Virus record (IMG/VR): IMGVR_UViG_3300029448_000160
Span: 1 to 35,832 of that record
DNA: 35,832 bases
Origin: a virus
Strand: one strand, 5' to 3'
The notes under the pieces: generated by a model
Told to the model about the DNA's origin: nothing
What the model saw: the letters and a program-made list of their open reading frames with translations, nothing else
The model's database searches: none
Shown: positions 5,806 to 35,832 of the stretch, one piece after another
Position numbering within the stretch: the stretch's first letter is position 1
Layout of the letters: each line of letters begins with the position of its first letter
Position numbers and translations under genes: made by a program

Positions 5806-6109
5806 TGATTAAAGTCTCACCTCTGTCCAAAGCCTTGTGTTCTAAAGTATGGCAGTTCATACACAGTATAGCACACTTACGAGCCTCTTTCAATACTCTC
5901 TCCATTTTCATGTGCGACCATGCGTTTATTCCTAAATCAAGTTCTTTTTCATTAGGGTCTAGATGGTGAAAGGCCAAAACATCAGACGGCCAATGCTCTT
6001 TACATATCTCGCATTTCCCTCCAGTTTGCTGCATGATATAGGACTCTTTCCTTTTCCTTCCTCTTATGTATATTTTTAAACTTTTACTTGGGTTATCAAA
6101 ATTCTTCAT
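5666..6109 (-). CDS. HNH endonuclease, C-terminus overprinted on polymerase start
   Basis: Free-standing HNH endonuclease, 147 residues. Seen: a basic lead, GGKCEICKEHW (zinc Cys pair), LAFHHLDP (HH of the active site) and CAILCMNCHTLEHK (second Cys pair plus His). The domain is complete by about residue 100, which coincides with the polymerase start codon. The remaining 46 residues, an acidic Arg/Asp tail, are read in a different frame over the first 140 nt of the polymerase gene. ATG 6109 has a near-perfect AGGAGGTAGCCC leader and overlaps the primase end by 14 nt. It is AT-richer than both flanks (19 of 60 at 6061-6120), consistent with a mobile homing gene inserted between helicase and polymerase. 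Confidence 0.87.
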   Translation of the reverse strand: MKNFDNPSKSLKIYIRGRKRKESYIMQQTGGKCEICKEHWPSDVLAFHHLDPNEKELDLGINAWSHMKMERVLKEARKCAILCMNCHTLEHKALDRGETLINDPDAYLRYRNYRIKRDPDLFDREDMDDRNDGPGDEDEEEFPYAFV

Positions 6110-7529
6110 GGGCTACCTCCTGTATCTCAGGTGCCACACCCGCCACCATACGAGAGGTATCGTCCTCGTAGTACAGCCATCCAGCGTGTCCCGTGCGTCC
6201 CGTGCGGCGGCACTTCACTAGCTGCACCTTGGTACAGTTCCTAGCGTAGTCGTCCTCCGACATCTTGTCCCTACTTAGGAGTATGGTATTGAATGCGATC
6301 TGGTTGATCGAACCGGACCCCTTCATGTCGTACTCGTTGACATCGTGAGGGTCCTTAACGCTGGGCTTTCGTAGGTGTGACACGATGATGATGGCCGCAT
6401 TGGTTTCCTTGGCCAGCTTCAGGCACCTGTCCATGAACGAGTCAATCATCCCGTTCTCGTTGGACTGCACCGCTGCCTGTAGTGGATCAAGGATTACCAC
6501 ATCACAGTCCATCCCCTTGATCAGATACCTCATACGAGAGAACAAGTCCTCGATGTCTGAGGCTCCGGCATGGTCGTCAAGGTGTATCCTGTCGGTCTCC
6601 TGTAGTTCCTCATAGTGAGGACGGTAGGAACTGTAGTCCCGTTCCTCTTCAGGTATCACCTTGATATTAGTACCGGCAACCACCCCCACTACGTTCTCGG
6701 TAGTCTCGCCTATGGATGCCTCAAGAAACACCGCTCCGATCCTACGGTTGGTCTCCTTGTACATACCATAGAGTAGATTGGTGACGAAGGTAGTCTTACC
6801 TACGGAGGTCAAGGCACCAATCACCGTGACCTCACCAGCGGCCATGCCACCGTTCATCATCTTGTTGAGGGTGCCGAAGGTGGACGGGAAGGGTATGATC
6901 TCTGCCTTGCCACGGGTGACAAAGGCGTCCCAACATACCTCGTCGGACAGTGAGACCACCCCTGCTGGCTTATAGTCCTTAGCGTCCCACCAGCACTTGA
7001 CGAACTCCTGCACCTTACCGGCAGTCAGCATATCGGCGGCGTCCTTCATGGGCAGACGTACCACCTTGGCCTTGTTAGGTGAGAACAGGGGGACCACCTC
7101 ATCAGCGGCCTTCTGTCCAGCAGCATCGTTGTCAAAACAAACGACCACCTTATCGAATGTCTCTAGCCACTCAAGGTTCTCCTTGATGTCCTTGGATGCG
7201 GCGGCGGAACCTCGTTTGATACTGACTACTGGCCACTTGCCGTCGAACATCTCGGCCACTGCTAGACTATCAAGTTCGCCCTCGGTTATCGTAATAAACT
7301 TACCGCCACCTGACCACACGTTCTGTCCAAAGAGACCAGTGTTTTCCAGGGTGCCGGTAGAGTAGAAGTCTTTAGTAATGCAGTTACGGACCTTGGTTCC
7401 CACTAGTTTGCCAGTGTCCTTGTCGTGGTATGGGTAGTGATGTTTGTTGTCTTCTAAAGTTACCCCAAACTTCTCGACTATTCGCTGAGATATATTTCTG
7501 TCCTTGATGGGTCCTGATGTACCGGACAT
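6096..7529 (-). CDS. Predicted internal-start helicase form (gp4B-like)
   Basis: Same frame as the primase-helicase but beginning at Met68 (ATG 7529). It would be 477 residues, with TOPRIM linker and helicase but without the zinc-binding domain. T7 makes an equivalent short protein from Met64 of gene 4. Support here: AGAGG 7-11 nt before the ATG, and the palindrome CTGGGACGGTCCCAG ending 18 nt before it. The same arrangement precedes two ordinary gene starts at 9064 and 9752. Expression itself is inferred. Confidence 0.6.
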   Translation of the reverse strand: MSGTSGPIKDRNISQRIVEKFGVTLEDNKHHYPYHDKDTGKLVGTKVRNCITKDFYSTGTLENTGLFGQNVWSGGGKFITITEGELDSLAVAEMFDGKWPVVSIKRGSAAASKDIKENLEWLETFDKVVVCFDNDAAGQKAADEVVPLFSPNKAKVVRLPMKDAADMLTAGKVQEFVKCWWDAKDYKPAGVVSLSDEVCWDAFVTRGKAEIIPFPSTFGTLNKMMNGGMAAGEVTVIGALTSVGKTTFVTNLLYGMYKETNRRIGAVFLEASIGETTENVVGVVAGTNIKVIPEEERDYSSYRPHYEELQETDRIHLDDHAGASDIEDLFSRMRYLIKGMDCDVVILDPLQAAVQSNENGMIDSFMDRCLKLAKETNAAIIIVSHLRKPSVKDPHDVNEYDMKGSGSINQIAFNTILLSRDKMSEDDYARNCTKVQLVKCRRTGRTGHAGWLYYEDDTSRMVAGVAPEIQEVAHEEF

Positions 7530-7730
7530 TTCCAATCCTCTCGTTTTCTGGGACCGTCCCAGGTTTTCGATGGGAGGGGGAATTTCACCCCCTGCCCTCT
7601 CGATATGACCACACTTGAAGCAGTACCCATGCCCGTCATCGTACACTGCGAGGTTATCCCCCGTCTTATCTTCTCCGTCAGTACGACATGAGGGGCATGG
7701 TGCCTTGCTTATGAAGTTAGACTGGAGCAT
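6096..7730 (-). CDS. T7 gp4-like primase-helicase
   Basis: Bifunctional primase and DnaB-type hexameric helicase, 544 residues (T7 gp4 566). Zinc-binding domain: CPSC (C12, C15) and CFKC (C37, C40). TOPRIM: TEGELDSLAVAE with E150 and CFDNDAAG with D200/D202. Helicase: Walker A GALTSVGKTT at 305-314, Walker B VVILDP with D415, VSHLRK with H452, and the arginine-rich CRRTGRTGH near 507-515. The C-terminus ends HEEF, an acidic tail with terminal Phe as in T7, where it docks on the polymerase. An internal ATG at codon 68 has its own Shine-Dalgarno and palindrome, suggesting a second, zinc-finger-less product. The start at 7730 overlaps the SSB stop as TAATG. Confidence 0.97.
   Translation of the reverse strand: MLQSNFISKAPCPSCRTDGEDKTGDNLAVYDDGHGYCFKCGHIERAGGEIPPPIENLGRSQKTRGLEMSGTSGPIKDRNISQRIVEKFGVTLEDNKHHYPYHDKDTGKLVGTKVRNCITKDFYSTGTLENTGLFGQNVWSGGGKFITITEGELDSLAVAEMFDGKWPVVSIKRGSAAASKDIKENLEWLETFDKVVVCFDNDAAGQKAADEVVPLFSPNKAKVVRLPMKDAADMLTAGKVQEFVKCWWDAKDYKPAGVVSLSDEVCWDAFVTRGKAEIIPFPSTFGTLNKMMNGGMAAGEVTVIGALTSVGKTTFVTNLLYGMYKETNRRIGAVFLEASIGETTENVVGVVAGTNIKVIPEEERDYSSYRPHYEELQETDRIHLDDHAGASDIEDLFSRMRYLIKGMDCDVVILDPLQAAVQSNENGMIDSFMDRCLKLAKETNAAIIIVSHLRKPSVKDPHDVNEYDMKGSGSINQIAFNTILLSRDKMSEDDYARNCTKVQLVKCRRTGRTGHAGWLYYEDDTSRMVAGVAPEIQEVAHEEF
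7548..7562 (-). promoter_or_regulatory. Palindrome-SD cassette inside primase gene
   Basis: Minus strand reads CTGGGA-CGG-TCCCAG, a perfect 6-bp inverted repeat, followed by AAAACGAGAGG and ATG 7529 (gap 18 nt). It shares palindrome, AAAA run and spacing with the copies at 9083 and 9770. It may act as a DNA operator or, given the fixed distance to the Shine-Dalgarno, as an RNA stem-loop. There is no U-tract, so it is not a terminator. Confidence 0.7.
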
Positions 7731-8104
7731 TAAAAGTCCTCATCATCTGCGCCATCCATACCCTCGGCCATCTCCAGTACCTTGATCTTCTTGAAGTACG
7801 GAGCAACACCATGTGTAGGGTGCGGCTTACCGGGCTCCCACAGTACGCGAACACGGGAACCATACGGGATGTACTTGGCAATGGACTCACCTTCCGCATC
7901 AAGAACAGGGAACCCAGGAAACTTGGTTACGAACTTACGCTGGGGTTGGTTCTTGTACTCCTTCAGCTTCACCCCTGTCTCAGCCAGCTTTGCTGCCTCA
8001 TCAGGTTCCAGGGTGAGAACGATGGAATACTTGCCCGTGTCCTGTCCATTAAAACGCTCAGTCTCATTAAGGTTTGAGAACGCAACAGTACCTTCAGTAA
8101 TCAT
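7730..8104 (-). CDS. gp2.5-like single-stranded DNA-binding protein
   Basis: Predicted ssDNA-binding protein, 124 residues, much shorter than T7 gp2.5 (232). Seen: a beta-rich body (GTVAFSNLNETERFNG, KYSIVLTLEP, KFPGFPVLDAEG, YGSRVRVLWEPGKP, GVAPYFKKIKVLEM) compatible with an OB fold, and an acidic tail DGADDEDF ending in Phe. Such a tail with terminal Phe is the hallmark of gp2.5 and mediates contact with polymerase and helicase. The start at 8104 has AAGGAG at good spacing, and the stop overlaps the primase start (TAATG), tying their expression. Assignment rests on position, tail and fold pattern rather than a signature motif. Confidence 0.82.
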   Translation of the reverse strand: MITEGTVAFSNLNETERFNGQDTGKYSIVLTLEPDEAAKLAETGVKLKEYKNQPQRKFVTKFPGFPVLDAEGESIAKYIPYGSRVRVLWEPGKPHPTHGVAPYFKKIKVLEMAEGMDGADDEDF

Positions 8105-8121
8105 AGTATCTTCTCCTTCAG

Positions 8122-8349
8122 TTAGCTAGGGTAATTTTCACGATAGTTAGAGGTAGGCATAGAGTACCGTACATAACGCCTACCTGTAGGATCAACCTTC
8201 CGTTGGCGGGTGATGACAATGCCCATCTCTTCGAGGTCACTGATCCTACGGGGTAGACTGGCAATCCGATAGAGATCACGGGCCTCGTAGTTAGAGATCG
8301 AACGACCACCCTGGAAGTGATTAATCAAAAGTGTGGTTTGTGATTGCAT
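8122..8349 (-). CDS. Small winged-helix/HTH protein, 75 aa
   Basis: Predicted DNA-binding protein. Seen: LLINHFQGGRSISNYEARDL, then LPRRISDLEEMGIVITRQRK and TGRRYVRYSM, the helix-helix-recognition helix followed by a beta-wing pattern of the small phage HTH family related to pfam14090. It is a candidate transcriptional regulator of the phage and possibly the reader of the repeated palindromes, but nothing proves this. The start at 8349 has a strong AAAGGAG. It lies 17 nt upstream of the SSB gene. Confidence 0.75.
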   Translation of the reverse strand: MQSQTTLLINHFQGGRSISNYEARDLYRIASLPRRISDLEEMGIVITRQRKVDPTGRRYVRYSMPTSNYRENYPS

Positions 8350-8365
8350 GATAACTCCTTTCTGA

Positions 8366-8689
8366 TTATGTTAATATATTAATCTTTTTAGGTTCTTCTG
8401 TCAAGCGGAGATTTTTACCGTCCTTTCCATAGGCATCTATAAACTCCTGAGATGCTTCAATTAACAGCATGTTGTCCACTATTTCCTTTCGATATGTATC
8501 ACCGTATTCCCAGCTACCGTAGGTCATAGGAGACTTAGCCCCAGTAAACCAACGTGAATAAATATCTTTCTCCTCATTCTTAGGCATCTTGTATGTCTTT
8601 AAAACTCTCAATTCAAAATCTCCTGCCGCTCTAAAAATAGCATACGGTTCTTCGATATCTCTTGTCTTTCCCATTGGATTCTTAGCCAT
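8366..8689 (-). CDS. Conserved-looking hypothetical protein, 107 aa
   Basis: No function recognised. It resembles proteins I associate with marine phages: an N-terminal MAKN, then FELRVLKTYKMPKNEEKD, YSRWFTGAKSPMTYGSWEYG and a helical C-terminal half. It has no cysteine or membrane segment. ATG 8689 overlaps the previous stop and has GGAGGT upstream. It is AT-rich (21 of 60 at 8581-8640) compared with the primase region. A 16-nt gap separates it from the HTH gene. Confidence 0.75.
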   Translation of the reverse strand: MAKNPMGKTRDIEEPYAIFRAAGDFELRVLKTYKMPKNEEKDIYSRWFTGAKSPMTYGSWEYGDTYRKEIVDNMLLIEASQEFIDAYGKDGKNLRLTEEPKKINILT

Positions 8690-8907
8690 CAGTCAGTACC
8701 TCCTATCTTCAGTTGATGATCCGTTAATTGTTCGAGTCTCTCGAATACACTCTTTCGGAGTCTCGTATTTATCTTGTGACCCTGAGAACCTCCCGGCCAG
8801 TACTCAAGATGGACCCACTTACGACCCCTCTTCTTGACGTTGACTATCCTGTAGCCAGAGCCTATCCGCGGTGCCTCATCAGCAAACCATATAGACCTAT
8901 GCGTCAT
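8689..8907 (-). CDS. Basic hypothetical protein, 72 aa
   Basis: Unrecognised. Basic and aromatic (GYRIVNVKKRGRKWVHLEYW, then INTRLRKSVFERLEQL), so a nucleic-acid contact is possible. The start at 8907 overlaps the end of the 55-aa basic gene by 11 nt, with GGAG about 13 nt upstream. Its stop overlaps the next start, so it is part of a tightly coupled row of small genes. Confidence 0.7.
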   Translation of the reverse strand: MTHRSIWFADEAPRIGSGYRIVNVKKRGRKWVHLEYWPGGSQGHKINTRLRKSVFERLEQLTDHQLKIGGTD

Positions 8908-9064
8908 AGTCTAGATACTCCTTGATCTCCTTGTCCGCATCAGTCGCAGACAGGGTACGCTTACGGGACCTGAAGGCCTTGGGGTGGTAGTATTTATCCA
9001 TCACGACCTTCTCTGGGTTCCTCCGTTTCTTCGGAGCAGACCGCCTCTTGTTCTTGGTAGACAT
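8897..9064 (-). CDS. Small basic protein, 55 aa
   Basis: A short gene, MSTKNKRRSAPKKRR onward, with an Arg/Lys-rich N-terminal half and a DADKEIKEYLDYDA acidic end. No family recognised; a nucleic-acid-binding role is plausible from charge. Start at 9064 preceded by AAAGGAAAGG and, 18 nt upstream, by the palindrome at 9083-9097, so it is one of three starts with that cassette. Stop TAG at 8897 overlaps the next gene by 11 nt. Confidence 0.72.
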   Translation of the reverse strand: MSTKNKRRSAPKKRRNPEKVVMDKYYHPKAFRSRKRTLSATDADKEIKEYLDYDA

Positions 9065-9082
9065 AACCTTTCCTTTCTTTTT

Positions 9083-9097
9083 CTGGGACCATCCCAG
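9083..9097 (-). promoter_or_regulatory. Palindrome-SD cassette upstream of 55-aa gene
   Basis: Minus strand CTGGGA-TGG-TCCCAG, then AAAAAGAAAGGAAAGGTT and ATG 9064 (gap 18 nt). Perfect 6-bp arms. Same architecture as at 7548 and 9770. Confidence 0.75.
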
Positions 9098-9102
9098 GAA
9101 AT

Positions 9103-9167
9103 CTTAAGAACACCTAGGAAATAACTTTAATGAATATATAAAGGATTAATTCCCTAGGCTTCTTAAG
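9103..9167. repeat. Large inverted repeat with AT-rich centre
   Basis: Arm 1 (9103-9118) is CTTAAGAA-CA-CCTAGG; arm 2 (9153-9167) is CCTAGG-C-TTCTTAAG, its reverse complement apart from the 1-2 nt linker. The 34-bp centre is very AT-rich. It fills the non-coding gap between the 65-aa and 55-aa genes and lies immediately next to the 9083 palindrome. It could be an operator, an mRNA processing hairpin or a secondary initiation site. There is no U-tract for a terminator. Confidence 0.75.
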
Positions 9168-9171
9168 TATT

Positions 9172-9369
9172 CTATAGATCATTCTCTTCATTGTCAAGAG
9201 GAATTTTTGAGATGACGTTTAGGTCGTCAATATACTCGAAGTCCTCCGCTACCGCCTCACCTATTGAACCCATGCACGTACTGCATGTGTCAAGGGGTAA
9301 ACCTGTGAACAGATCACGCTTAAGTAGTTCTCCGTCTTTTAGTTTATTGTCGCAAATAATACAACGCAT
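9172..9369 (-). CDS. Zinc-ribbon-like small protein, 65 aa
   Basis: Short protein with two Cys pairs, CIIC at residues 3-6 and CSTC near 29-32, a typical zinc-ribbon spacing, followed by an acidic tail (EDFEYIDDL, DNEENDL). Function unknown; small zinc ribbons of this kind are frequent among early phage proteins. The start at 9369 has AAAGGAG. A 13-bp palindrome, ATCTCA-C-TGAGAT, lies at 9396-9408 upstream, within the end of the preceding tiny gene. Confidence 0.72.
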   Translation of the reverse strand: MRCIICDNKLKDGELLKRDLFTGLPLDTCSTCMGSIGEAVAEDFEYIDDLNVISKIPLDNEENDL

Positions 9370-9390
9370 TTTACTTCTCCTTTACTTGTC

Positions 9391-9480
9391 CTAAAATCTC
9401 ACTGAGATATAGATTAGGGTCCAGGTCACGATAAAATATACCCAGTGATCCGACAAAACTAATCTAATTTTCTCCCACAT
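9391..9480 (-). CDS. Tiny predicted membrane peptide, 29 aa
   Basis: MWEKIRLVLSDHWVYFIVTW and onward: one hydrophobic segment of about 15-18 residues with a positively charged end (SVRF). It begins 1 nt after the stop of the 61-aa gene. The Shine-Dalgarno is weak, so translation would rely on re-initiation. The longer frame reaching 9624 overlaps the 61-aa gene and lacks a good leader. Supported by the similar tiny membrane gene at 9654, but it could be chance. Confidence 0.45.
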   Translation of the reverse strand: MWEKIRLVLSDHWVYFIVTWTLIYISVRF

Positions 9481-9481
9481 A

Positions 9482-9667
9482 TCAAGAACCCCATGCACCA
9501 GTCGCAACATAATGCTTATACTTCTTGTCTTTCTCAATGGGGTTCCACCACCAGTCCGGCATAACATTATACCTGCACTCCATCGACCAGCACCACTCGT
9601 TGTATCCCATGCGTCTAACCGCACTCATACACTGGTCCACTAGTTTCTGTCTGCTATATGCCGCCAT
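9482..9667 (-). CDS. Trp-rich hypothetical protein, 61 aa
   Basis: Starts MAAYSRQKLVDQCMSAVRRM, continues NEWCWSMECRYNVMPDWWWN and ends in ATGAWGS; three Cys and six Trp in a short span. No family recognised. Start at 9667 has GAGGGG about 9 nt upstream and overlaps the preceding tiny membrane gene by 14 nt. The alternative frames here are much less protein-like. Confidence 0.65.
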   Translation of the reverse strand: MAAYSRQKLVDQCMSAVRRMGYNEWCWSMECRYNVMPDWWWNPIEKDKKYKHYVATGAWGS

Positions 9668-9752
9668 AGATAAACCCCTCTATAAAAAAGATTGCTGTTG
9701 CCAGTGCCATCGCTAGTGCGACTATATCGACCGTACCAAATTGCTTATTCAT
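9654..9752 (-). CDS. Tiny predicted membrane peptide, 32 aa
   Basis: MNKQFGTVDIVALAMALATA followed by IFFIEGFIYGGI: a single transmembrane segment covering most of the peptide. The start is chosen at ATG 9752 because GGAGG sits 8 nt upstream and the palindrome CTGGGATCATCCCAG ends 17 nt upstream, the same cassette as at 9064 and 7529. The longer frame to 9848 would run through the palindrome into the Gp88-like gene. Early location argues against a holin; a host membrane or superinfection function is conceivable. Confidence 0.65.
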   Translation of the reverse strand: MNKQFGTVDIVALAMALATAIFFIEGFIYGGI

Positions 9753-9769
9753 TGTCAACCTCCAATTTT

Positions 9770-9784
9770 CTGGGATGATCCCAG
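9770..9784 (-). promoter_or_regulatory. Palindrome-SD cassette upstream of 32-aa gene
   Basis: Minus strand CTGGGA-TCA-TCCCAG, then AAAATTGGAGGTTGACA and ATG 9752 (gap 17 nt). Perfect 6-bp arms; lies in the 34-nt gap after the Gp88-like gene. Confidence 0.75.
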
Positions 9785-9786
9785 GT

Positions 9787-10404
9787 TTAATGTTTCTTGT
9801 ACGATACGTTTTTAACGGACGGATTCCAACATGCCCGACAATCCCCACAATTATTCCCGCGAGTGTAGGCGAGGCATTCCTGTCCTATGGGCTCTCCGTG
9901 TTTGTCGAATACCGTGCTGGTATTGTCAGCACTAGGGGCGCGACCATTGACCTTGCTTCCAGATAGACGGATCACTAGGTTATCAGGGGTTTCCACGCCA
10001 TGTATGATATCCCGTTCCTGCGTAGGTAGCCAATGGTTTACATCGGGAGTGCGTTTGCACACCTCAATAATACTCTCCAGCATGGTCCGCGATTGCAAGT
10101 CTCCGCTGTCGAACCACCGATGGTATTTGGTTCCCGATCTATTGATCTGAAATACCATTGCTTCAATCCAGGTTTTTTGACTGGCGTTTTTCCATTTCTC
10201 CAGGTTAGCTTTGTAACCCTGGTTCACGCTAGGACGTAGCTTTTGTAGCTTCCGGGCATAGCAAGACGCGCACGGTGTCCCTTTGATTTCTGCTAACTTG
10301 CTTCCCGTTTTACACGCGAAAGCATCTATGGCGTAGGATGTCCCTGGCATCTTGCTATTGCCTTTGGATATCTTTCCAGACTGTATCGCTTCTTTAACTA
10401 ACAT
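9787..10404 (-). CDS. Gp88-like cysteine-rich phage protein, 205 aa
   Basis: Resembles the phage GP88 group (named after mycobacteriophage gene 88), function not established. Seen: FACKTGSK with C31, GTPCASCYARK with C45 and C48, NQGYKANLEKW, YHRWFDSGDLQS, HWLPTQERD and a C-terminal CGDCRACWNP with C186, C189 and C192. The CxxCYA motif followed by a (F/W)-x-x-x-GD motif is the shared feature; the Cys sets suggest an iron-sulfur or zinc site. It is in the early arm, after the first small gene. The leader AAAGGAACTAGAACC before ATG 10404 closely matches that of the gene upstream. Confidence 0.7.
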   Translation of the reverse strand: MLVKEAIQSGKISKGNSKMPGTSYAIDAFACKTGSKLAEIKGTPCASCYARKLQKLRPSVNQGYKANLEKWKNASQKTWIEAMVFQINRSGTKYHRWFDSGDLQSRTMLESIIEVCKRTPDVNHWLPTQERDIIHGVETPDNLVIRLSGSKVNGRAPSADNTSTVFDKHGEPIGQECLAYTRGNNCGDCRACWNPSVKNVSYKKH

Positions 10405-10677: not shown

Positions 10678-11661
10678 CTAGCGACGGAGTGCCTCAGGGA
10701 TTTCCAGAGGGTCAGGGTCCGCTATCTCCGCGAGTGCGGCCTGTGCGATCCCGTGAGGATCGAAACCCGCTTCCTGAGCTTCCGCGAGTAGTGCGGCAAT
10801 CTCAGAGATGAACCGGGTATTTTCCAGTTCCGGTTCCTTCTCGGTTGCTTCCTCGGTTGTTTCCTCGGTCACTTCCTCCTCGGTTACTTCCTCAGCTTTC
10901 TGAGCTTTCTGGATAGCCTTTCGAATTGCTGAGAGTTTGCGCCATCCGTTCGCCAGGGCTTCATCTACTACAGCATCGAAATTCTCTTTAACAAATTTGC
11001 AATCCCTAGCGAATTCAGAACGCTGTTCCGGCGTGAGGAAAACAAATAGATCGGTTAATCTCTCACTGTTGGAAATCATCTTCTTGGTGAGTGACTTTCC
11101 TGGCCATGCACCTTCTGTTTCCTCGTTCAGAACTTCCCACATTGGAAGGTAGTGTTCCGTCACTAGGCTTTGTGTGTGGACCATCTCAGCTTCAGCGGCA
11201 CCACGTAAGGCGTGATTAATCGTTTCAACATTGTGTGTCATTGTCTTGGTTTCCTTTTCATCTGTGGTTGGTGGTGTAGTAGGTTTTGTGGGAGGATTGC
11301 GGAAGGCTATAGCTGCCTCCCGTGATTTCTCCCGCATCTCTTTGATCAAGTCGCTGTCAACTCCCCATGATGGAGTACGACCGCCACAATAGCTCAGAGC
11401 CTCTCGGCTGGATACATGGGTGCTATTCAACTCAGCTTTTGATACCCTACCTTGAAGAGTTTTCTGGATTTCTTTTTCGCTCATGTACCAATCTACGGCA
11501 CCCCACATGCATCGGTCATCAATGCCCCTGGATAGGTCATAAAAATAACAGAGATAATGTTCTTGAGTGTGTAGCGTAACCCATGCCACTCCGATTGTCT
11601 GCCCGTGTTTGTCGTACTTCCCACCGGCATCAAATGCGAATGTTTGAATTGTCTTGGTCAT
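10678..11661 (-). CDS. First leftward early protein, 327 aa
   Basis: Not recognised. N-terminal part is mixed (FAFDAGGKYDKHGQTIGVAW, then YLCYFYDLSRGIDDRCMWGA), followed by a Pro/Thr linker (near 123-135), a helical region and an acidic Glu/Thr low-complexity stretch near 266-286 (EEVTEEEVTEETTEEATEKE). It is the first gene after the leftward promoter and so likely an immediate-early protein. Start at 11661 has GGAG upstream. An internal ATG at codon 141 follows AAAAGGAAACCAAGACA, similar to the leaders of the next two genes, so a shorter product is possible. The two halves look unalike and may be a fusion. Confidence 0.75.
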   Translation of the reverse strand: MTKTIQTFAFDAGGKYDKHGQTIGVAWVTLHTQEHYLCYFYDLSRGIDDRCMWGAVDWYMSEKEIQKTLQGRVSKAELNSTHVSSREALSYCGGRTPSWGVDSDLIKEMREKSREAAIAFRNPPTKPTTPPTTDEKETKTMTHNVETINHALRGAAEAEMVHTQSLVTEHYLPMWEVLNEETEGAWPGKSLTKKMISNSERLTDLFVFLTPEQRSEFARDCKFVKENFDAVVDEALANGWRKLSAIRKAIQKAQKAEEVTEEEVTEETTEEATEKEPELENTRFISEIAALLAEAQEAGFDPHGIAQAALAEIADPDPLEIPEALRR

Positions 11662-11698: not shown

Positions 11699-11726
11699 AT
11701 TATAAGGATATATCTATAGTGGTCAA
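11699..11726 (-). promoter_or_regulatory. Leftward sigma70-like promoter
   Basis: Minus strand TTGACC (11726-11721), 16-bp spacer, TATAAT (11704-11699). The -10 is perfect and the -35 matches five of six. It lies 38 bp before ATG 11661 and is the only strong leftward promoter seen, so it likely drives the early arm with the host polymerase. A CTGGGA-type palindrome ends 8 bp upstream of the -35. Confidence 0.82.
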
Positions 11727-11733
11727 ATGAAAT

Positions 11734-11748
11734 ATGGGATCATCCCAG
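11734..11748. promoter_or_regulatory. Palindrome upstream of leftward promoter
   Basis: Plus strand ATGGGA-TCA-TCCCAG; one base off the CTGGGA-N3-TCCCAG consensus. It sits just upstream of the leftward -35 box, a position suited to an activator or repressor. Confidence 0.65.
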
Positions 11749-11845
11749 AAAAAACCTGTGTATAAGTTGCTTTATTTCCTAGTGTTGCATAAATACACCA
11801 GGTGGCACAAGAGTTGCATAAGCAATAACCATGCCAATTAAATTC

Positions 11846-11859
11846 CTGGGATGTCCCAG
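11846..11859. promoter_or_regulatory. Palindrome in control region, 2-nt spacer
   Basis: CTGGGA-TG-TCCCAG, extended to 7-bp arms by flanking C and G. Same arms as the other four copies but a 2-nt centre. No start codon follows at the 17-18 nt distance. Confidence 0.6.
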
Positions 11860-12136
11860 GAAATCCCCGAGAACCATACTCAGGTATTCTTTTTTTCTCA
11901 TTTCCACATGCATTCTCAGGTGGTCTCAAGAAATCCACACGCCTAATGTGGTCTTTTGTGGTCCTGAGAAGTACCGGGGGGACCCCTAGCAGCCACGTCT
12001 CTTTGTCTTTGTCCCTCATGCCCACATGGGAAGCAATTTGGACCCCTAAGAATTACATAAATAACTAAACCATAGTAAAATAACTCTTGACTTTTCAGGA
12101 CAGGCGGGGTACTTCCTAAGAAATCCTAAGAAGCTA

Positions 12137-12165
12137 TTGACTTTAGGTTCTAAATATGATATAAT
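12137..12165 (+). promoter_or_regulatory. Rightward sigma70-like promoter
   Basis: TTGACT (12137-12142), 17-bp spacer, TATAAT (12160-12165). Initiation expected near 12172, giving a leader of about 150 nt before ATG 12325. It is the evident start of the structural arm. A second TTGACT at 12087 lacks a -10 box. Confidence 0.82.
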
Positions 12166-12201
12166 AAAGCTATAAAGAGGTTGATACTTAAGAACATCAA
12201 A

Positions 12202-12231
12202 GTTAAACTTTAAGAAGTTAACCTTTAAGAA
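12202..12231. repeat. 15-bp tandem repeat in rightward leader
   Basis: GTTAAACTTTAAGAA (12202-12216) directly followed by GTTAACCTTTAAGAA (12217-12231), 14 of 15 identical. It lies downstream of the rightward promoter. It could bind an initiator or regulator, or arise from AT-rich slippage. Confidence 0.7.
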
Positions 12232-12276
12232 TTTAAACAAATAACTTATCTTCACATCTTAAGAATACTTAAGTTA

Positions 12277-12294
12277 CAAACCAGTTATGGTTTG
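12277..12294 (+). terminator. Hairpin in rightward leader, possible attenuator
   Basis: CAAACCA-GTTA-TGGTTTG, 7-bp stem and tetraloop, followed by GTCTTTTC. The stem is AT-rich and the T run short, so termination would be weak; attenuation or a translational role is equally possible. Confidence 0.4.
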
Positions 12295-12324
12295 GTCTTT
12301 TCAAAATAGTCGAGGAGTTGTCTT

Positions 12325-34928: not shown

Positions 34929-35832
34929 TCTTTTGTACCAGTTTCGGGGTCAATGTAACAGGCAGCACCCTCTGTCTGTGGTTCATCGGCCACATTAAGA
35001 ATACCATAGCGTTTACCTGCCAGCCTGAAGGTAGTCACACCCTTTAGCTTACCCTTCCATCCCTTCATGTACACATCCTTGAACTCATCAAAGGTTACTG
35101 CGTCTCCTACGTTAATAGTCTTGGAACACGCGCTGTCTACGAAGGGCTGCACTGCAATCTGAATAGCAAGGTGGTCGTCTACTGACAGGTCGTTGGCTAC
35201 CTCACCCTGTAGATTATACTTATCATGTACGTAGTCCTTCATCTTCATAATGACGGGACCTTCTGGTAACTGCACAGTCCTGTCGTACTCCAAGGCAAAC
35301 ACAGGTTCAATCCCGCTGCTTACGTTGTCAGCGGTAAAGCTAATGGTTCCTGTGGGTGCTATGGAAATCAAGTGACTGTTCCTCATGCCCTGCTTCTTGA
35401 TCTTTGCCTTTAGTTCCTCGGGAAACTTGGATACGAACCCACTCTCCAGATACCCCGTCTCCTTGAACTTAGGAAATGATCCCTTCTCCACTGCAAGGTC
35501 TGAGCTTGCCTCGTAACAGGCATGGGTCAGCGTCTTCATAATCTTCTTGGTAAACTTAACGGACTCAGGAGAGCCATAGGAGAGATCCATAAGAGTGAAG
35601 GCGTTGGCTAGGCCAGTGATCCCTATGCCTATCCTACGGGTCCTCTGATGCTCCTTACGCTGCTCTTCAAGAGGGTACTGTGTACGATCAATGACGTTAT
35701 CCATAGCACGTACAACGTGGGCAATATCTGCCTTAAATTGTTGATAGTCAAACGCAAAATAGGTAGGCGTGATGTACCGTGGCAGATTAAAGGAGCCCAG
35801 AAGACAGGCACCGAAGGGAGGCAGGGGCTGCT
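34919..35832 (-). CDS. nrdJ: Class II ribonucleotide reductase, C-terminal part (gene cut by window end)
   Basis: Continuation of the gene whose start is at 965. Reads from the finger loop (QPLPPFGACLLGSFNL) through IGITGLANAF, SIAPTGTISFTADNVSSGIE, DSACSKTINV and a C-terminal ACYIDPETGTKECG, where the last cysteines would act as the thiol shuttle that reduces the active-site disulfide. Counting 965-1 plus 35654-34919 gives 1701 nt, exactly 567 codons, confirming the join. In the overlap this copy encodes TYFAFDYQQFKADIA where the left copy has DFEFDYEQFNADIP, so the two ends represent different alleles. Confidence 0.93.
   Translation of the reverse strand, partial: QPLPPFGACLLGSFNLPRYITPTYFAFDYQQFKADIAHVVRAMDNVIDRTQYPLEEQRKEHQRTRRIGIGITGLANAFTLMDLSYGSPESVKFTKKIMKTLTHACYEASSDLAVEKGSFPKFKETGYLESGFVSKFPEELKAKIKKQGMRNSHLISIAPTGTISFTADNVSSGIEPVFALEYDRTVQLPEGPVIMKMKDYVHDKYNLQGEVANDLSVDDHLAIQIAVQPFVDSACSKTINVGDAVTFDEFKDVYMKGWKGKLKGVTTFRLAGKRYGILNVADEPQTEGAACYIDPETGTKECG
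35655..35832. repeat. Right copy of the diverged terminal overlap
   Basis: Pairs with 1-178 (65 identical bases, a diverged block 35720-35768 with one extra codon, then 44 identical bases, then synonymous changes only). Lies within nrdJ. Confidence 0.9.

Follow-up and report, generated by a model that had tools for sequence, protein, structure and literature searches.

Several classes of short, repeated DNA element have been described in phages, of which two appear closest in layout to the element considered here. The stoperators of phage L5 are asymmetric sites oriented with transcription, bound by the immunity repressor as a monomer, which halts elongation. In cluster K mycobacteriophages the SAS, GGGATAGGAGCCC, contains the Shine-Dalgarno (SD) sequence and lies 3-7 bp before the start codon, and in the ESAS a SigA-like promoter is flanked by 17-bp repeats that match imperfectly (PMC3203893, PMC11373665). 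The authors of the cluster K work raised an objection to an operator reading of such elements, namely why operators should adjoin start codons (PMC3203893).

Here we describe a palindrome that recurs in uncultured marine podophages. Like the L5 stoperators, its copies are sites of ∼13 bp, many and near-identical (56 exact copies in nine genomes), located at promoters and in short intergenic gaps. Unlike them, the core is an inverted repeat that gains direction only from A-rich flanks, a promoter copy is reversed in the genome that we study, and there are 4-9 copies per genome; no repressor or lysogeny gene was recognised in the motif-bearing phages. As with SAS and ESAS, the repeats lie just before the starts of a subset of non-structural genes, mostly in one orientation, and are inverted repeats without RNA covariation, with sites that are lost wholly rather than decayed and with clade-specific versions (PMC3203893, PMC11373665). 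They differ from SAS in sequence, in having the SD outside and after the element and in a gap of 16-25 nt to the ATG, and from ESAS in that promoter-like hexamers lie beside the copy at 11735-11747, with none spanning the copies at 7548, 9083 and 9770 in the operon direction. Because sequence, SD placement, symmetry and the absence of an internal promoter all differ, we do not count the element as a member of the L5, SAS or ESAS groups. The initial annotation knew of no described element of this form, which is not wholly accurate, stoperators and SAS/ESAS being close analogues. A search of Rfam gave no match and a literature search with the palindrome sequence no relevant paper.

Genome and Copies of the Palindrome

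The window, by which we mean the whole stretch of DNA analysed (35,832 nucleotides), comprises positions 1-35,832 of IMG/VR record IMGVR_UViG_3300029448_000160. T7-like replication genes occupy the minus strand and structural genes the plus strand. We infer a near-complete circular genome of ∼35.7 kb, since the ends repeat one another and gene order in relatives is collinear with that of the window. The direct repeat (1-175 and 35655-35832, 175 nt) sits at a ribonucleotide reductase gene and is 88-91% rather than 100% identical, suggesting that two strain variants were joined when a circular genome was closed. For this marine lineage no isolate turned up, the nearest by DNA polymerase being 52% identical, and a terminase search in genome contigs matched four distant MAG contigs, from which nothing was concluded as to the host. 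The features needed first are as follows.

6096-7730, minus strand: T7 gp4-like primase-helicase (PHROG 239, E 1.6e-160)
7548-7562, minus strand: palindrome copy CTGGGACGGTCCCAG within the primase-helicase ORF, 18 nt before the internal ATG 7529, with SD AGAGGA at 7541-7536
8897-9064, minus strand: basic ORF of 55 aa behind the copy at 9083-9097
9083-9097, minus strand: palindrome copy CTGGGATGGTCCCAG; the 55-aa ORF has its ATG (9064) after a further 18 nt
9654-9752, minus strand: hydrophobic ORF of 32 aa, seen in the sequence, behind the copy at 9770-9784
9770-9784, minus strand: palindrome copy CTGGGATCATCCCAG, 17 nt before ATG 9752 of the 32-aa ORF, with SD GGAGG at 9763-9759
11735-11747, no strand assigned: proximal promoter copy TGGGATGATCCCA, a 13-bp core with a broken outer pair and with A-rich flanks that read on the plus strand
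11847-11858 (core), no strand assigned: distal promoter copy, the 12-bp form TGGGACATCCCA within TTCCTGGGACATCCCAGGAA (11843-11862)

An exact scan returned the three perfect minus-strand copies of CTGGGA-N3-TCCCAG that had been reported initially, each followed, as claimed, by AAAA, an SD and an ATG (7529, 9064 and 9752, after 18, 18 and 17 nt). The set was incomplete, however, as two more sites that precede the first leftward gene and its promoter had been missed. When up to two mismatches are allowed 5 matches are obtained in the window against 1.08 expected, a number reached in 0 of 100 shuffles. Four 6-bp hairpins in the window open with CTGGGA, corresponding to the three perfect copies and the one with a 2-nt centre; in Markov simulations with a 3-nt loop an arm was never repeated in 97 of 100 runs and reached a maximum of two in the other 3.

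The copy at 9770-9784 begins right behind the stop codon of a GP88-like gene (9787-10404), and in relatives unrelated small ORFs take the place of the 32-aa ORF with the element still there. Orthologues of the 9083-9097 site were found in G001, G003 and G016-G020. Just upstream of this site (9100-9170, minus strand) lies a long imperfect dyad, CTTAAGAA-CCTAGGGA ... TTCCTAGG-TTCTTAAG, that is kept in ten sequences, with two pairs changed on both sides according to RNAalifold.

Conservation in Related Phages

Relatives were gathered by pattern scan and by protein searches, yielding many sequences, all uncultured, and sites were counted in nine related genomes of ∼30-37 kb. These contain, besides the 56 exact core copies, a single copy with one mismatch, and simulations give zero exact copies; the palindrome is thus conserved in related phages, as the initial annotation had asked to be checked. 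An SD and start codon lie 12-30 nt from 37 of the 56 sites against a background of 10.4%, a closeness to start codons well above chance; the binomial p of ∼3e-23 is too small, because copies in related genomes are non-independent, although the direction is clear. Most of the other 19 sites are promoter-region copies upstream of the first early gene, one or two of which occur in every genome holding that region. Some copies lie past the last early gene and have no start codon (G002 11998, G016 25516, G017 6929), and the G002 site at 1879 has no start codon with SD within 30 nt. No copy was found in the rightward structural (late) operon of the nine genomes.

In a motif-independent sample of 80 loci, found by primase similarity, the motif is present in 10/10 loci of at least 77% primase identity and in 0/70 of at most 62%. 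These figures, together with the confinement of sites to the leftward unit, support the proposal that leftward genes, early and replicative, make up a regulon specific to the phage. A search with the family of the first leftward gene led to the same picture, as 24 of 24 newly fetched viral loci carry the motif, among them contigs that had not been brought in by the motif scan (L103, L108, L112, L113, L119). HTVC104P has no such repeated palindrome. Other palindromes were noted along the way. A similar one occurs in another phage group, where unrelated contigs (L008 2017-5614, L017 107-769, L026) carry up to five ATTCTGGGAWWWTCCCAGAAT-like palindromes, several of them intergenic. Two more distant primase relatives (L156 313-420, L171 2160-2280) have repeats with TTATCCACA, resembling a DnaA box, and GCACCAAAGTGGTGC palindromes, and these stretches may belong to an origin.

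The core, TGGGA-Y(N)R-TCCCA, is invariant and consists of two TGGGAY half-sites in inverted orientation, 0 or 1 bp apart. On the coding strand the consensus of collapsed sites reads AAA-Y-M-TGGGA-Y(N)R-TCCCA-K-AAAA. The flanks are directional on that strand, where positions -3 to -5 are AAA and positions +2 to +5 are AAAA in 25-29 of 29 collapsed sites. Several properties first ascribed to the element hold in part. The palindrome is perfect in the three window copies, but its outer C-G pair is frequently mismatched in relatives (C-G 26, C-T 20, A-G 5, A-T 2). The 3-nt centre does vary (CGG, TGG, TCA), but always as Y-N-R. The spacing to the start codon, 17-18 nt at the three window copies, widens to 16-25 nt across relatives, a range that owes something to crowding, since many sites touch the preceding stop codon and element, SD and start codon follow closely. 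Inner pairs (C-G 18, T-G 25, T-A 7, C-A 3) and outer pairs each vary independently (Fisher p 0.72 and 0.69). The arms are all-or-none, and the covariation that had been suggested as a check did not materialise: the arms are invariant across relatives, with no compensatory change.

Sites in the clade of the window are chiefly 13 bp long. In the G016-G019 clade every site outside the primase gene has the 12-bp form and the in-frame primase copy, in which one base fewer would shift the frame, still has 13 bp, a split that fits a single trans-acting factor being served. The proximal promoter site is the 12-bp TGGGATGTCCCA in L029 and the 13-bp TGGGATGATCCCA in G003, and both forms therefore appear usable.

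The Internal Start of the Primase-Helicase Gene

The T7 primase-helicase gene, 4A/4B, has a second start, internal and in frame, behind the part that encodes the zinc-binding domain; no operator-like palindrome is known at that start. The window gene is arranged in like manner, with a zinc motif, an in-frame internal start with SD and then primase and helicase domains. That one copy lies inside a coding gene, as first noted, is confirmed, ATG 7529 being codon 68 and following the zinc-binding part in the alignment; a short, 4B-like form of the protein is predicted to start there.

The copy at 7548-7562 is retained with altered amino acids in G002 and in the G016-G020 clade. Since in G002 the palindrome is kept even though amino acids differ, with one codon more before the ATG (NMGPSHKSTRKLEM vs NLGRSQKTRGLEM), selection on the nucleic acid is indicated. 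The internal SD and ATG are kept without the motif in G001 and in L132 (G030 contig); in G001 the palindrome is gone without trace and the SD and ATG stay, so that the internal start does not need it. In L181/L182, 43% identical, another palindrome, AACTAC-N4-GTAGTT, stands at the same spot of the primase gene, is repeated in the contigs and occurs in tandem in the putative promoter region, a pattern that is suggestive only, because a reversed control pattern also matched with one mismatch allowed.

The First Leftward Promoter Region

11699-11726, minus strand: sigma-70-like promoter TTGACC-N16-TATAAT of the leftward operon, 11/12 consensus matches

Between the copy at 11735-11747 and the -35 hexamer of this promoter, which lies downstream, are 8 nt; L028/G005 show the same arrangement. 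The leader RNA would not include the upstream copies, and no other promoter-like site stands out in the window that would transcribe them.

Other elements of the region deserve mention. Between the two promoter copies is a conserved dyad, GGCA-N6-TTGC-N4-GCAA-N6-TGCC (11801-11838, minus strand), whose outer arms change together (GGCA/TGCC in the window vs GGTA/TACC in L028); a close version lies beside the tandem palindromes of L181 (43% primase identity). Within it TTGGCATGGTTATTGC at 11838-11823 is conserved and fits a -24/-12 pattern, but we do not call it a sigma-54 promoter, as it is half of the dyad whose outer arms change together. Further along are a highly conserved intergenic stretch with repeated TTCTTARG (12060-12310) and a strong rightward sigma-70-like promoter, TTGACT-N17-TATAAT (12137-12165).

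Proposed DNA Operators and Alternative Readings

We favour, with moderate confidence, the view that the element forms a dispersed set of DNA operators for a putative dimeric regulator, comparable to the L5 stoperators and the cluster K SAS/ESAS. Half-sites in duplex DNA fit the presence of copies in the promoter region and of others that have no start codon, the freely varying inner and outer pairs and the 0/1-bp spacer; the all-or-none arms, the 16-25 nt spacing and the internal start of G001 and L132 without motif favour operators as well. The genomes show directly where the sites lie, that they are conserved and confined to the leftward unit, and that some of them stand in the promoter region. 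A dimeric DNA-binding protein would bind the two inverted TGGGAY half-sites with their A-rich flanks; the protein, its dimeric state and the sign of regulation are what we infer. At the first leftward promoter the upstream copies would govern initiation, and those in stop/SD/start gaps and in the primase linker would block or pause elongating host RNA polymerase in the manner of stoperators or, alternatively, adjust expression of the genes behind them. Against operators stand the directional A flanks, superfluous for a symmetric dimer site, the placement of the primase copy exactly at an internal start and the failure to find a DNA-binding protein shared by all motif phages. The objection raised for cluster K, why operators should adjoin start codons, applies here as well.

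Action at the RNA level, which the initial annotation put forward alongside a compact promoter-proximal operator, would have the palindrome form a hairpin of 4-6 bp before the SD that, protein-bound or alone, sets translation or mRNA stability. Its best points are the directional, A-rich coding-strand flanks and the closeness to start codons (the 37 of 56 sites noted above, against about 10% background), to which can be added the copy at an internal start inside a gene and a stable predicted hairpin (-7.3 kcal/mol for the window copies, -4.9 kcal/mol for 12-nt forms). However, the 12-nt forms close four pairs only, leader folds are ordinary relative to shuffles (z +0.2 to -1.8) with the SD largely open, the pairs vary independently and without covariation, the spacing is not constant, G001 keeps its internal start with no hairpin, and there are copies ahead of the first promoter and past the last gene. 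We thus regard RNA-level action as unlikely.

Promoter/stem-loop cassettes have been proposed as sites of gene exchange in T4-type phages, and the palindrome might similarly be a short shared sequence for the exchange of small early genes. The unrelated small ORFs behind the same element in relatives, the all-or-none presence and a contig, L039, that shares motif-bearing early genes with relatives and has different late genes would all be in keeping with such a recombination or mobility cassette. Orthologous sites are nevertheless kept over 75-80% protein identity, including those at the promoter and in the primase linker, where amino acids have changed, and this explanation strikes us as very improbable.

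The virion RNA polymerase promoters of phage N4 consist of a short hairpin with a 3-nt loop, then a homopolymer run, features that the present element resembles, with different arms and loop and no recognised virion RNA polymerase gene. That the copies are phage RNA polymerase promoters (N4 hairpin or T7-type) with very short leaders, as the 3-nt-centre palindrome, the near-constant distance to SD and ATG and the direction given by A-rich flanks might suggest, is hardly credible given that no RNA polymerase is found among PHROG matches of large ORFs in the window, that its largest ORF (951 aa) weakly matches a virion protein family, that a PF00940 search of five genomes gave no match, nor any from its control, and that such a role is at odds with copies placed immediately ahead of a sigma-70-like promoter.

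Candidates for the Regulator

8122-8349, minus strand: HTH_39 winged-helix protein of 75 aa, absent from several motif-bearing relatives
10678-11661, minus strand: first leftward gene product of 327 aa, with a conserved helical core of ∼95 aa from near 11241

The regulator that would bind the operators is most likely phage-encoded, though it may be a host protein. The 75-aa HTH protein, put forward initially as the binder, fails as a general answer, since its gene is missing in the motif-bearing G002, G005 and G016-G020. No single DNA-binding protein turned up that all motif phages share. The first leftward gene product is a candidate only: every viral locus found with its family, the otherwise different L039 among them, has the motif too, and the core of its AlphaFold model has a pLDDT of about 93, but no DNA-binding fold is recognisable in it. 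Foldseek found no fold match in PDB or BFVD, the best VIA-align Z was 2.7 and Pfam matches to the family are weak and inconsistent. The gene includes an acidic TEE-repeat region of variable length and, in the window and G005, an extra N-terminal ∼130 aa that is absent in relatives.

Implications

A further reading, bold and in our estimation improbable, is that a single factor recognises the element at ribosome-binding sites as well as at the early promoter, and that operator specificity switches between lineages, as L181/L182 would illustrate. If true, it would couple the transcription of early genes to how strongly chosen replication genes are translated and to how much full-length primase-helicase is made relative to the short form. 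The palindrome bears on how such small phages, in which no RNA polymerase of their own is evident, time their early genes. It also adds a second, independent example of elements associated with start codons, the role of which has yet to be settled for mycobacteriophages. The site set is exact, countable and clade-wide, and as such is a direct bait for the regulator.
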